Notes under the pieces: model-generated
Databases searched by the model: none
What the model saw: the letters and a program-made list of their open reading frames with translations, nothing else
Told to the model about the DNA's origin: nothing
Position numbers and translations under genes: made by a program
Origin: Euzebya sp.
GTDB taxonomy: Bacteria > Actinomycetota > Nitriliruptoria > Euzebyales > Euzebyaceae
Length of the DNA: 54,090 nucleotides
NCBI RefSeq assembly: GCF_964222135.1
Contig: NZ_CAXQBR010000014.1
Coordinates: forward strand, 1 to 54,090
Direction of reading: 5' to 3'
Part shown: piece by piece, positions 29,327 through 38,312 of the stretch
How the letters are laid out: each line of letters opens with the position of its first letter
Position numbering within the stretch: the stretch's first letter is position 1

Positions 29327-31621
29327 TCAGCCGTCGACCCCGCTGGCGCGGACGGCGGCGTCGACCAGCGCGGCCACGGCCGTCTCGGCGACCGCGGCGG
29401 TGCCCCCGAGGACGCGCAGCCGGGCGACGGGCGATCCGCCCTCGGCCAGTGCCGCCACGACCTCGGGCGACCGTGCCGCGGGGGCCTCCGGGTCGGTGAG
29501 GAGCAGCACGTCACCGGCCGCGGCGACCGCCGCGCCCGCCGCGAGGGCGTCGGGCCAGTCCGCACCGGTCGCGATCCACGTCGTCGCGGACGAGGCGCCG
29601 TCGGCGACCAGCTGCGCGGCCACGGCGGCGGCCGTGCCGTACCGGGTCGGCCCGGCCACCCGCTCCGGGGCGAACCCGCCGGCCGTCAGCTCCTCGAGGA
29701 CGCCGTCGGACACCGCCGCGGGGCCGCCCACCACCACGGCCCGGGTGACGCCGAGGTCCGCCAGCGCAGCAGCCGTCGGGGCGGGCAGCTCGTCGCGACC
29801 CGTCAGCAGGATCGGCGCGCCGGTGCGCGCCGCCAGGGTCGACGCGGTCAGGACGTCGGCGAACGTCTCGCCGGAGGCGATCACCGCGGTCCCGTCGCGC
29901 AGCCCGATCGCCCGGGCGGCGGCAGCCGCGGTGGCGTGCCGGTCCGGGCCTGCCACGCGGGTGACCTCCACGCCGTCGGGCAGGCCGGCGAGCGCCGCGT
30001 CGGCCACCGCCGACTGCCCTCCGAGGACGACCACCCGCTCGGGCGCGAGGCGCGCGAGCTCCGCGACGGTCACCGCCGGCATGGCGTCCCGGCCGGTCAG
30101 CAGCAGGGGGGCGTCGAGGCTGGCGGCCACCGGCGCGCCGGCCAGCCCGTCGGCGAACGCGTCGCCGCGGGCGAGGACCACGACGGCGGCCCCGTCGGGG
30201 TGGCCGTCCCGGGCGATCGTGACCGCGGTCTCGTACCGGTCGACGCCGGCGAGGCGGTCGACGGCGGGTGGAGCGGTCGCCACCTGGGCGATGCCCACCT
30301 CGGTCGGGACGAGGCCCAGCAGGACGTCGAACCGCAACCGGCGGTCCTCGCCGACGGTGACCTCCGTCGTCTCGCCGCCGGTCGTGACCGCGTAGGTCGC
30401 GCCGGCCGGCAGGTCCGGTGGAGTGGCCACGGCGAGGGTGCCCGACCCCGAGGCGGTGAACCCTGCGGTGGAGACGCCGCCGAGCTCGGTCAGCGCGTCC
30501 CCGGTCCGGTCGATCGCGAAGTCCCAGCCGCCGACGGAGAACGCGGTGTCGATCGTCACGTGGTCGAACGGGCCGAGCGCGGCCGGGACGTCGGCCTGCC
30601 CGCGGTGGACCGCGCTGATCTCAGCCCACGCGTGGGTCTGCAGGCCGTCGTGCCAGTGCCACCAGTTGTGCCCGCCCTGTGGGACCGACAGGTAGTCGTG
30701 CTCGACGCCTGCCGCGGTGAGGGCCGCGTCGAACTGGTCGTTCAGGCCGGCGACCACGCCCTCGAGGGCCAGCCCGGCGGGGTCGTCGTCGGCGGGGGAG
30801 GGGCCGCCGGGCAGCCCGCGGTTGGTGCGGAACCACACGCGCGTCTGGTGGAGGTTCGCCGCCAGCCTCGTCGGGCTGTGGCCCTGCACCCGGACCGCAT
30901 CGAGGACCGGATCGCCCCACACGTCGGGGAAGGCGACGGCGAGCGCGGTGGTGTCCATCGCGCCGGAGAACCCGAACGCAGCCCCGAAGGTGTCGGGGTG
31001 CCGCGCGGCGTAGTGCATCGCCCCGCCGCCGCCCATGGACAGCCCGGCGACGGTGATGCCGGCGCGGTCCTCGCGGATGCGGAAGGCGTCGGCCAGCCAG
31101 GGCAGGAGCTGGCCGATGTGGTAGGTCTCCCACTCCGGGGCGCCGTACTCGCCGCCGCGGTGCCAGTCGGTGTACCAGCCCGGTTCGTCGGGGGTGCCGC
31201 CGTCGGGCATGGCGATCACGACGTCGGCGTCAGCGGACCACTCCTCCAGCGTGGTGGGCCAGCCGTCCTGCTTGGTCGTCCACCCGTCGTACCGGTCGCC
31301 GGCGCCGTGGAGGAGCAGCAGCAGCGGGTACTCGCGCAGCGAGGCGTCGTAGCCCGGCGGCACCAGGACCCGCACCGTCGTCTGGGCCAGCGGCGGGTCC
31401 AGGCGGGGGCTGTCGAAGGTGACGTCGACCATCCGGTCGCTCAGCCACTCGACCGCGACGGGTTCGAGAGGCTCGACGTCCGCCGCCGGCGCGTTCTCCG
31501 CGGCCACGGCCGGCTCGACCGCCTGCGGCGCGGCCAGGCCGGCCACGAGCACGGTGAGCAGGACGACCAGCACGACCGCCGACCAGCGACGACCACGGGA
31601 CAGGACAGGGCCAAGGGGCAC
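29327..31621 (-). CDS. Secreted esterase/Ag85-fold hydrolase with C-terminal CWB2 repeats
   Basis: A 764-aa exported protein. A signal sequence (about 10-40) precedes an esterase D/antigen 85-type alpha/beta hydrolase (about 60-350). The nucleophile is in GLSMGG (Ser about 195) and a candidate His in GGHNWWHW (about 318). A linker of about 80 residues leads to three CWB2 repeats (about 445-760) with RYETAV, FADGLAGAP and VVVLGG motifs. It is therefore fixed to the wall. Substrates could be polymer O-acyl groups or lipids; the MBOAT gene downstream favours the former. GTG start, with GGAG eight bases upstream. It diverges from the AAA ATPase gene. Confidence 0.88.
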   Translation of the reverse strand: MPLGPVLSRGRRWSAVVLVVLLTVLVAGLAAPQAVEPAVAAENAPAADVEPLEPVAVEWLSDRMVDVTFDSPRLDPPLAQTTVRVLVPPGYDASLREYPLLLLLHGAGDRYDGWTTKQDGWPTTLEEWSADADVVIAMPDGGTPDEPGWYTDWHRGGEYGAPEWETYHIGQLLPWLADAFRIREDRAGITVAGLSMGGGGAMHYAARHPDTFGAAFGFSGAMDTTALAVAFPDVWGDPVLDAVRVQGHSPTRLAANLHQTRVWFRTNRGLPGGPSPADDDPAGLALEGVVAGLNDQFDAALTAAGVEHDYLSVPQGGHNWWHWHDGLQTHAWAEISAVHRGQADVPAALGPFDHVTIDTAFSVGGWDFAIDRTGDALTELGGVSTAGFTASGSGTLAVATPPDLPAGATYAVTTGGETTEVTVGEDRRLRFDVLLGLVPTEVGIAQVATAPPAVDRLAGVDRYETAVTIARDGHPDGAAVVVLARGDAFADGLAGAPVAASLDAPLLLTGRDAMPAVTVAELARLAPERVVVLGGQSAVADAALAGLPDGVEVTRVAGPDRHATAAAAARAIGLRDGTAVIASGETFADVLTASTLAARTGAPILLTGRDELPAPTAAALADLGVTRAVVVGGPAAVSDGVLEELTAGGFAPERVAGPTRYGTAAAVAAQLVADGASSATTWIATGADWPDALAAGAAVAAAGDVLLLTDPEAPAARSPEVVAALAEGGSPVARLRVLGGTAAVAETAVAALVDAAVRASGVDG

Positions 31622-35556: not shown

Positions 35557-36873
35557 ATGGAACGGAACGCTGCCGCGGGCACGCTCGTGCTGATGGGGTC
35601 GGGCGAGACGACCCCGACGATGGTCACCACCCACAAGGCGCTGCTGGACCGGACCCGGTCACGCACCGGCCGTGACGACGTCCGCGCCAGGCTGCTGACG
35701 ACGCCGTACGGCTTCCAGGAGAACGCCGGTGAGATCACCGCCAAGGCCCGGCAGTACTTCGCCCACAACGTCGGCGTCGACGTCGCCGCGATCGACGCCG
35801 GGTCGCTCGAGGACGCCGACGGGCTGACCGTCGAGCGCGTGCGCGACGAGGTGCGGCGCAGCGACTGGCTGTTCGCCGGGCCCGGCAGCCCGACCTACGC
35901 GCTGCGGCAGTGGCGGGCCGCGGGGCTGGCGGACGCGATCGGCCAGGTCCACCGCGGTGGCGGCACCGTGGTGCTGGCGTCGGCGGCGGCGGTGACGGCC
36001 GGCTCCCACGCCGTGCCCGTCTACGAGGTCTACAAGGCCGGGCAGGTGCCCCACTGGTGGGAGGGGCTCGGGCTCGTCGAGGCGCTCACCGGCTGGCCGG
36101 CCGTGGTGATCCCGCACTTCGACAACGCCGAGGGCGGCACCCACGACACGCGGTTCTGCTACCTCGGGGAGCGGCGGCTCTCCGCGATGGAGGCCGAGCT
36201 GCCGGAGGGCACCTGGGTCCTCGGCGTCGACGAGCACACCGCCTGCATCGTCGACGGCGACACCGCGACCGTGCGGGTGGAGGGGCGCGGCGGGGTCCAC
36301 GTCCGCGCGGGCGGCGAGGTGGTCCTGACCGTCGGGGCGGGTGAGGAGCGCCCGATGGCCGACCTGGCCGCCGCCGGGACCGGTCGCCTCGCCGAGGTCG
36401 GACGCCCGACCGAGACCGTCGCGCCGGGGGTGGTAGACGCCGGGTCGCAGCTCGCCACCGGCGGCCCGGAGGGGCCGTTCCTCGACGCGCTCGCTGCCGA
36501 GCAGGGGCGGTTCGACGACGCCCTGGCCGCCCAGGACGCCGAGACCGCCACGGCCGCGGCGCTGGCGACCGAGCAGCTGATCCGCGACTGGTCGGCCGAC
36601 ACCCAGGTCTCCGACGCGGCCGAGCGCGGGACCGCGCAGCTGCGCGGGATGATCACGCGGCTCGGGGCTCTGGCGGGGGAGGGCATGCACGACCACGTCG
36701 AGCTGGTCCGCCCCGTCATCGAGACCCTCCTCCACGTCCGCGAGGACGCCCGCCAGCGCAAGGTGTACGAGGTGGCCGACCACATCCGCGGGCACATGGA
36801 CGCCGACGGGATCCGTGTCAAGGACACCCGCGAGGGCGCGGTGTGGGAGTGGGACGAGCCGTCGGACCGCTGA
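35557..36873 (+). CDS. Peptidase S51-like GATase1-fold domain fused to a CysRS-like C-terminal region
   Basis: A 438-aa protein of unusual architecture. Residues about 8-235 resemble peptidase E/cyanophycinase-type class I GATase folds: LMGSGETTP, FAGPGSPTYALRQW, and a nucleophile-elbow position that reads LASAAA rather than the usual GSSAGA. Ser (S142) is therefore kept, but the flanking Gly residues are lost. From about 305 to the end it resembles the helical bundle and C-terminal tail of cysteinyl-tRNA synthetase (FDDALAAQDAETATAAAL, then ADHIRGHMDADGIRVKDTRE and GAVWEW). No HIGH or KMSKS catalytic core is present. Function unknown; hydrolysis of an amino-acid conjugate or tRNA binding are possibilities. 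Confidence 0.75.
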   Translation: MERNAAAGTLVLMGSGETTPTMVTTHKALLDRTRSRTGRDDVRARLLTTPYGFQENAGEITAKARQYFAHNVGVDVAAIDAGSLEDADGLTVERVRDEVRRSDWLFAGPGSPTYALRQWRAAGLADAIGQVHRGGGTVVLASAAAVTAGSHAVPVYEVYKAGQVPHWWEGLGLVEALTGWPAVVIPHFDNAEGGTHDTRFCYLGERRLSAMEAELPEGTWVLGVDEHTACIVDGDTATVRVEGRGGVHVRAGGEVVLTVGAGEERPMADLAAAGTGRLAEVGRPTETVAPGVVDAGSQLATGGPEGPFLDALAAEQGRFDDALAAQDAETATAAALATEQLIRDWSADTQVSDAAERGTAQLRGMITRLGALAGEGMHDHVELVRPVIETLLHVREDARQRKVYEVADHIRGHMDADGIRVKDTREGAVWEWDEPSDR

Positions 36874-36878
36874 CCGGG

Positions 36879-37445
36879 TCAGGGGAGGGTCAGCAGCGCG
36901 CGGTGCAGGTCGCGGGCCAGGTCGAGGTCGGGTTCGCGGGCGTTCAGCAGGTCCGCGAAGATCATCGACTCGCCGATCCGGACGAACATGTACGCCAGCC
37001 GGCCGACCTCGCGGGGGAGGGTGAGCGCCCCGGACGCAGCAGCCTCCTCCATCTCACGGCGCCAGATCGCCACCGACGCGTCGTGGACGCCGCCGGTGTC
37101 GGTGAACAGCACCCGGAAGGCTGTGGCGGGGTCCTGCTCCATCAGCTGTCGCAGCGGCCCGAAGGCCACGACGTAGCCGTTCATCCGCCGGGCGCCCTCC
37201 ACGATCCGGTCGATCCCGGGCGGGTGGATCTGCGCCACCTCCGCCATCGACATCCGCTGGGTCACCTCGGCCAGGTCGTTGACGATCCGCCCGAGCAGCC
37301 GGTCGCGGCTGCCCACGACCCGGTACAGGGTCGCCCGGCCGACCGCCAGCTCCTCGGTCAGGCGGCGCATGTCCACGTCGCCGGTCGCCATGAACTGCCG
37401 TCGGGCGGACCGGACGGCATCGTCGAGGGAGATGACACGAGACAC
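36879..37445 (-). CDS. TetR-family regulator, QsdR-like
   Basis: A 188-aa repressor-type protein. The N-terminal helix-turn-helix (about 25-50, MRRLTEELAVGRATLYRVVG) is followed by the QsdR-type C-terminal region with FADLLNAREPDLDLARDLHR. QsdR in Rhodococcus controls lactone catabolism; the ligand here is unknown. It converges on the S51-like gene with a five-nt gap and is not next to an obvious target operon. Confidence 0.88.
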   Translation of the reverse strand: MSRVISLDDAVRSARRQFMATGDVDMRRLTEELAVGRATLYRVVGSRDRLLGRIVNDLAEVTQRMSMAEVAQIHPPGIDRIVEGARRMNGYVVAFGPLRQLMEQDPATAFRVLFTDTGGVHDASVAIWRREMEEAAASGALTLPREVGRLAYMFVRIGESMIFADLLNAREPDLDLARDLHRALLTLP

Positions 37446-37778: not shown

Positions 37779-38312
37779 TTGACCCTCGGGGACGTCGAGG
37801 GTGTGGCGCCGGGGACGGTGGTCGGCGTGGACCTCGGGCTGCGGACCGGCGTCGCGGTGCTGGACGGCGTGGTCGACGGGCCCGTCCGGCTGCGCCGCTA
37901 CACCTCCACCCACATCGGGTCGCGGTCGGCGCTGCGACGCGGCGCGGTCGGGATGCTGGCGGAGGTGGGGCCGATCGCGGTCCTGGCCGTGGAAGGCGAT
38001 GAGGGGTTGGCGCGCATCTGGGAGCGCGCCGCCCGCGGGACGGGTGCGGAGGTCGTCCGGGTCCACGCCGAGCGGTGGCGCGAGGTGCTGCTGCTCCCGC
38101 GCGAGCGCCGGACCGGCAAGCTGGCCAAGGCCGCCGCGCAGGCCAAGGCCGTCCGGGTGATCGAGTGGTCCCGCGCGAACGGCGGTCGTGCGCCGGCGCC
38201 GGTGGGGCCGCTCCGCCACGACACGGCGGACGCGATCATGATCGCGGTGTGGGCGGCGGTCGCCCTCGGCGGGGTCGAGGTGCGGTCGCTGCCCTTCGAC
38301 GTGCCGGGCTGA
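37779..38312 (+). CDS. RuvC-like RNase H-fold nuclease family protein
   Basis: A 177-aa protein with the RuvC/RNase H-fold pattern: VVGVDLGLRTGVAVLD supplies the first acidic residue, LAVEGDEG the second, and LRHDTADAIMIAVWA the C-terminal HD..D pair. Its size is that of RuvC, but it is not next to ruvA or ruvB and overall similarity is low. It may be a RuvC-like resolvase or another nuclease. TTG 37779 was chosen on coding-like third positions; GTG 37803 or 37818 are alternatives. Confidence 0.65.
   Translation: MTLGDVEGVAPGTVVGVDLGLRTGVAVLDGVVDGPVRLRRYTSTHIGSRSALRRGAVGMLAEVGPIAVLAVEGDEGLARIWERAARGTGAEVVRVHAERWREVLLLPRERRTGKLAKAAAQAKAVRVIEWSRANGGRAPAPVGPLRHDTADAIMIAVWAAVALGGVEVRSLPFDVPG

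Follow-up and report, generated by a model that had tools for sequence, protein, structure and literature searches.

We analyzed a 54,090-nucleotide stretch of DNA from Euzebya sp. (RefSeq assembly GCF_964222135.1, contig NZ_CAXQBR010000014.1, positions 1 to 54,090; hereafter, the window), taken from an assembly of 5.06 Mb in 111 contigs. The gene described here opens with an ATG, contains no internal stop codon, and joins an S51-type hydrolase domain to the C-terminal region of CysRS (Table 1). On its 5′ side lies a gene for a CT398-like protein with a coiled coil and a zinc ribbon, itself preceded by a DUF34/NIF3 gene, and on its 3′ side a TetR-type regulator is encoded on the opposite strand (36879-37445). 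Two other genes of the window were noted in passing. One (29327-31621, minus strand) encodes repeats that, judged by eye, resemble cell-wall binding repeats 2, preceded by an esterase-like domain. The other (37779-38309, plus strand) encodes a 177-aa protein with no Pfam match, the N-terminus of which, VVGVDLGLRTGVAVLDG, resembles an RNase H-fold resolvase.

Table 1. Positions in the window of the fusion gene, its domains, and its key residues
Feature	Position	Strand	Basis
Whole gene, S51-type hydrolase with CysRS C-terminal region, 438 aa	35557..36873	+	ORF and homologues
S51 (cyanophycinase/peptidase E-like) domain, residues 8-275	35578..36381	+	Pfam PF03575, Foldseek, VIA
Nucleophile elbow LASAAA, residues 140-145	35974..35991	+	Ser142 codon at 35980-35982; aligns with GCSAGA of 6nqc
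His187, predicted triad His (IPHFDN)	36115..36117	+	Invariant; aligns with IPHF of 6nqc
Family-specific loop DNAEGGTHDTRFCYLG, residues 189-204	36121..36168	+	Alignment of 41 homologues
Glu226, predicted triad acid (GVDEHT)	36232..36234	+	At least 90% conserved; aligns with GIDE of 6nqc
Linker, residues 276-305, low confidence, length variable among relatives	36382..36471	+	pLDDT <50 at 283-304; gappy alignment
CysRS-type helical bundle, residues 306-376	36472..36684	+	Three helices in model; hhalign to CysRS
CysRS-type anticodon-binding domain, residues 380-432	36694..36852	+	Profiles, alignment, VIA
R395, R399, Y404, D408, equivalent to E. coli CysRS R423, R427, W432, D436	36739..36780	+	Alignment; contacts from PMC12684709

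The N-terminal half matched Pfam Peptidase_S51 (PF03575) over residues 10-238 (E = 6e-7; 29.8 bits against a cut-off of 23.9), and a PDB sequence search matched it to 6nqc, a cyanophycinase-like exopeptidase (E = 1e-5). Consistent with this, Foldseek aligned the S51 half of the predicted structure with 6nqc at 3.5e-13 and also with peptidase E and cyanophycinase, and VIA superposed the full model on 6nqc with a Z of 24.7 (239 aligned residues, 3.1 Å). The protein shares with the S51 family, which includes peptidase E, CphB, and MccG and in which the closest structure, 6nqc, is from an acI-B1 actinobacterium, the fold, the Ser-His-Glu positions, and the GSGE and GVDE motifs. By alignment, S142, H187, and E226 match the triad positions summarized for the family (PMC9239234). 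Across 41 aligned fusions, S142-A143-A144-A145 and H187 are invariant, and at least 90% of the sequences keep E226. The initial annotation had called the nucleophile elbow altered, and the alteration is real, but it consists of a single change, in which the Gly after Ser-Ala has become Ala (SAAA rather than SAGA), and the nucleophile Ser is not lost. The SAG(A) elbow is common in S51 proteins without strictly defining them; conventional S51 relatives have GCSAGA, whereas the fusions have SAAA in 41/41. The fusions also differ from the rest of the family in a loop inserted after H187 (DNAEGGTHDTRFCYLGERRL) and a PVYEIYK segment, both conserved among them and absent from two conventional actinobacterial S51 proteins, and in their obligatory CysRS-type tail. 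Within the loop, N190, G193, H196, D197, T198, C201, and G204 are invariant in the 41 fusions, giving the pattern HDT..C..G.

The C-terminal portion, from approximately residue 306 to 432, comprises the helical bundle and the anticodon-binding domain of CysRS. NCBIfam CysRS models matched residues 319-431 (PRK14536, positions 375-488 of 490, E = 3e-7; TIGR00435, E = 1e-4), the absence of the synthetase core leaving the scores far under the cut-offs set for the whole protein. These models covered only their own last ~110 positions, the remainder of the protein being S51, and the Rossmann catalytic core with its HIGH and KMSKS motifs is absent, as the initial annotation had proposed in describing a CysRS-like tail without the synthetase. 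A profile of the family's tails retrieved solved CysRS chains (3tqo at 1.6e-12, others at 4e-11 and 8e-11, E. coli 1li5 at 1.3e-9), with only noise beyond 3sp1 (3e-5), and hhalign paired tail columns 9-134 with positions 339-463 of 15 actinobacterial CysRS at a probability of 98.7% (E = 2e-16). An origin from MshC, the mycothiol-pathway paralogue of CysRS, was considered; the profile matches were to full CysRS tails.

Structure prediction, named beforehand as the analysis by which the relationship of the tail to CysRS could fail, gave a tail that matched CysRS bound to tRNACys. AlphaFold modeled the whole protein, with the 41-sequence alignment, at a pLDDT of 88, with residues 283-304 disordered and the loop at 192-196 weak, and modeled the tail alone at 93.8. 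The top Foldseek match of the tail was chain B of the CysRS:tRNACys complex 1u0b, with a weak E-value (2e-3 to 1e-2), and VIA placed residues 309-433 of the full model on residues 332-461 of 1u0b (Z 8.2, 117 aligned, rmsd 16 Å). VIA-align with the tail model alone returned generic helical bundles, CysRS not being listed. Given the large rmsd, the angle between the bundle and the small domain in this model probably differs from that in CysRS, and, with the weak Foldseek E-value, the homology of the tail rests mainly on the sequence profiles. The likeness to CysRS is nevertheless not due to chance, as the profile and profile-profile matches and the recurrence of the fusion in dozens of genomes demonstrate. 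Thus, the S51/cyanophycinase-like domain joined to a CysRS-type C-terminal region, as originally annotated, was borne out by sequence profiles, profile-profile comparison, and AlphaFold with Foldseek.

In E. coli CysRS, Arg427 and Asp436 form hydrogen bonds with G34 of tRNACys, Trp432 stacks, and Arg423 takes part in a water network (PMC12684709, quoting Hauenstein et al. 2004). The equivalents R395, R399, and D408 are identical in 41/41 aligned fusions, position 404 is always aromatic (Tyr, Phe, or Trp), and R411, D423, and W430 (R439, D451, and W458 in E. coli numbering) are likewise invariant. The same residues are kept in four more copies, from plasmid-collection records of Streptomyces CA-256286, Streptomyces NBC_01237, Nonomuraea gerenzanensis, and Streptomycetaceae NBC_01309. 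Retention of the G34-contacting residues despite a tail identity of only 22 to 64% between the window protein and the other fusions suggests that the RNA-reading site is under selection. On the other hand, the fusions vary at L415, A426, L442, and G446 (E. coli numbering), positions that are fixed or almost fixed among 25 actinobacterial CysRS; E. coli CysRS itself has Glu at 415. Near D451, the fusions have E at 448 and R/K at 450 in place of the V and E of CysRS, and they have lost the Arg457 of CysRS; these changes may alter the binding surface and speak against a tail that merely copies the function of CysRS. Net positive charge is absent from the fusion tail, as it is from CysRS tails. 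From the conserved contacts, we infer that the tail would bind tRNACys. That these G34-reading residues are conserved sharpens the suggestion accompanying the initial annotation, of a protein that may act on a Cys- or tRNA-linked metabolite, and raises its likelihood.

The fusion is an old family of Actinomycetota. A scan of ~85,000 species genomes, which detects only homologues sharing exact short peptides with the query, returned 47 loci, of which four reach a contig end; the two halves are strictly co-inherited, being present together in all 43 complete homologues. As to phylogenetic spread, one of the checks proposed with the annotation, the homologues are labeled Nitriliruptorales, Acidimicrobiales, and other Actinomycetota, with small-genome freshwater lineages of the acI type among the carriers. 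Among 396 Actinomycetota genomes, 374 gave a match, in most cases because the tail hit CysRS itself; the S51 part of the fusion was matched in 28, which span ten families. Of 41 near relatives, 13 had the fusion. In a quick tree with long branches, one branch (SH-aLRT 94) separated the fusion tails from CysRS tails, consistent with a single fusion event. Although homologous to the CysRS bundle and anticodon-binding domain (1u0b, 1li5, 3tqo) along its whole length, the tail thus stands on a separate side of the tree. Nor is the fusion a split CysRS, since the host also encodes an ordinary, tail-bearing CysRS (a 474-aa frame on contig C75) and, among the loci checked, one recognized tRNA-Cys(GCA), likewise ordinary. 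A second or odd tRNACys was looked for in fusion-bearing genomes, and the host showed nothing unusual among the loci checked.

Gene neighborhoods vary among the loci examined, and none of them named a translation partner or a pathway. In 11 loci (L034, L035, L037-L040, L042, L047, L053, L062, and L077), an alpha/beta hydrolase gene lies directly upstream, its end within ~35 bases of the start of the fusion, which suggests a two-gene operon in that lineage. Other neighborhoods hold clpS/DUF2017 and heme A genes. In acI/Nanopelagicales-type loci, a second S51 gene, 6nqc-like and with the normal GCSAGA elbow, lies directly downstream (L052:7160-7871, and the equivalent place in L054, L055, L058-L061, and L063-L065), adjoining a convergent gene with two GNAT domains that resembles mshD.

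We found no description of this architecture in open-access papers, and the deposited Streptomyces copies are annotated as "hypothetical protein." The pairing of an S51 domain with a CysRS anticodon-binding tail, undescribed in that literature, suggests an enzyme that removes something from cysteine tRNAs. Several known systems bear on this idea. The archaeal ThrRS-ed has a hydrolytic editing domain and an anticodon-binding domain without a synthetase core, the INS editing domain of ProRS depends on the anticodon-binding domain, and the free-standing YbaK strips Cys from tRNA without tRNA selectivity (PMC11295145). Within the S51 family, MccG shows that aminoacyl-nucleotide compounds can serve as substrates (PMC9239234). 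Counting against the idea, zinc-based selection by CysRS is held to be strict enough to make editing unneeded (PMC7373986). Weighing these facts together, we therefore favor, as the best-supported reading and with a probability of roughly 0.4, a free-standing hydrolase that is anchored on tRNACys and acts at its 3′ end, on a plan like that of ThrRS-ed.

In such an enzyme, the tail would grip the anticodon stem-loop of tRNACys (GCA) in the manner of CysRS, with R395, R399, and D408 reading G34 and the aromatic Y404 stacking on it. The flexible linker of ~30 residues would let the S51-type Ser-His-Glu site reach across the tRNA to cargo at the CCA end, where it would hydrolyze an aminoacyl group that is abnormal, or a short peptidyl one. 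The protein would then be a ThrRS-ed-like trans-editing factor in which an S51 hydrolase replaces a known editing domain. It shares with ThrRS-ed only the plan: ThrRS-ed carries the archaeal ThrRS editing domain and serves tRNAThr, whereas the fusion combines an S51 serine hydrolase with a CysRS domain in Actinomycetota, its hydrolase part being S51 by both Pfam and fold rather than a homologue of a known editing domain. Trans-editing factors of the YbaK/INS type are free-standing hydrolases like the fusion, and YbaK acts on cysteinyl-tRNA, but they are single domains with no anticodon anchor. S51 enzymes recognize aspartate and cleave amide bonds beside it; to our knowledge, none cleaves aminoacyl esters, and we know of no member of the family that acts on tRNA. 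As to the substrate, our guess would be a damaged Cys-tRNACys, for example the sulfinate, because this resembles the aspartate recognized by S51 enzymes and would suit both halves of the protein. A bolder proposal, somewhat less probable than the favored reading, is that this S51 hydrolase serves quality control of tRNACys in Actinomycetota: it would dock on the anticodon through its captured CysRS domain and clear the 3′ end of groups that are damaged or wrong.

Other explanations were weighed against the same observations. That the tail is a borrowed fold serving dimerization or protein contacts, its RNA binding lost, is unlikely. Such a role would accommodate the drift of nonpolar positions fixed in CysRS and the conservation of the fusion-specific E448 and R450, and the other retained residues, R439, D451, and W458, may be structural; yet nonpolar positions have relaxed while the polar residues that contact G34 are fully kept, the reverse of the pattern expected of a structural relic. 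An artefact, whether a frameshift or mis-assembly joining two genes or an over-reading of weak similarity, is scarcely credible, since the joined frame recurs in 43/43 complete homologues from independent genomes and in the Streptomyces records, and the profile scores are strong; nothing beyond modest single-sequence E-values speaks for it.

Two further explanations keep the tail as an RNA- or synthetase-directed module and change the task of the hydrolase. The protein could be a sensor, in which binding of (uncharged) tRNACys by the tail toggles a small-molecule peptidase and so couples peptide turnover to cysteine supply. HisRS-like domains serve in known sensors, S51 enzymes are peptide-scavenging hydrolases, a cyanophycinase-like S51 gene directly follows the fusion in acI-type genomes, and a sensor would show identical conservation of the anticodon contacts. 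However, the S51 site as a whole (SAAA and the long HDT loop) departs from that of the peptidases, which suggests a new substrate rather than added regulation, and no regulatory partner was seen; we regard a sensor as improbable. Somewhat more improbable still is a resistance or salvage peptidase, similar to MccG, that acts on aminoacyl-nucleotide-like inhibitors and is placed by its tail at or near CysRS or its tRNA. In its favor, MccG S51 peptidases inactivate processed microcin C, an AspRS inhibitor, and most of them are stand-alone genes (PMC9239234). Against it, MccG has Asp as the triad acid (PMC9239234) where the fusion family has Glu, the MccG substrate is a free nucleotide for which a tRNA domain is unneeded, and a biosynthetic cluster was not seen near the gene in the neighborhoods examined.

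A tRNACys-directed hydrolase would be surprising, since CysRS is held not to need editing (PMC7373986). If the favored reading is true, tRNACys is policed by a different route in some Actinomycetota, small-genome freshwater lineages among them, and the enzymes that act on tRNA come to include serine hydrolases from family S51.

A few of the loci deserve separate mention. In L105 (G223:C27:3239-3850), the copy of the fusion is partial or broken and contains a single in-frame TGA. Fusion genes also occur in L077, from a genome titled as a Bifidobacterium breve MAG, and in L040, L062, and L069, titled Rokuibacteriota. The alpha/beta hydrolase upstream of the fusion in L077, L040, and L062 is the same as that in Acidimicrobiia loci, and given the fusion and this shared neighbor, the bin names of all four are probably wrong.
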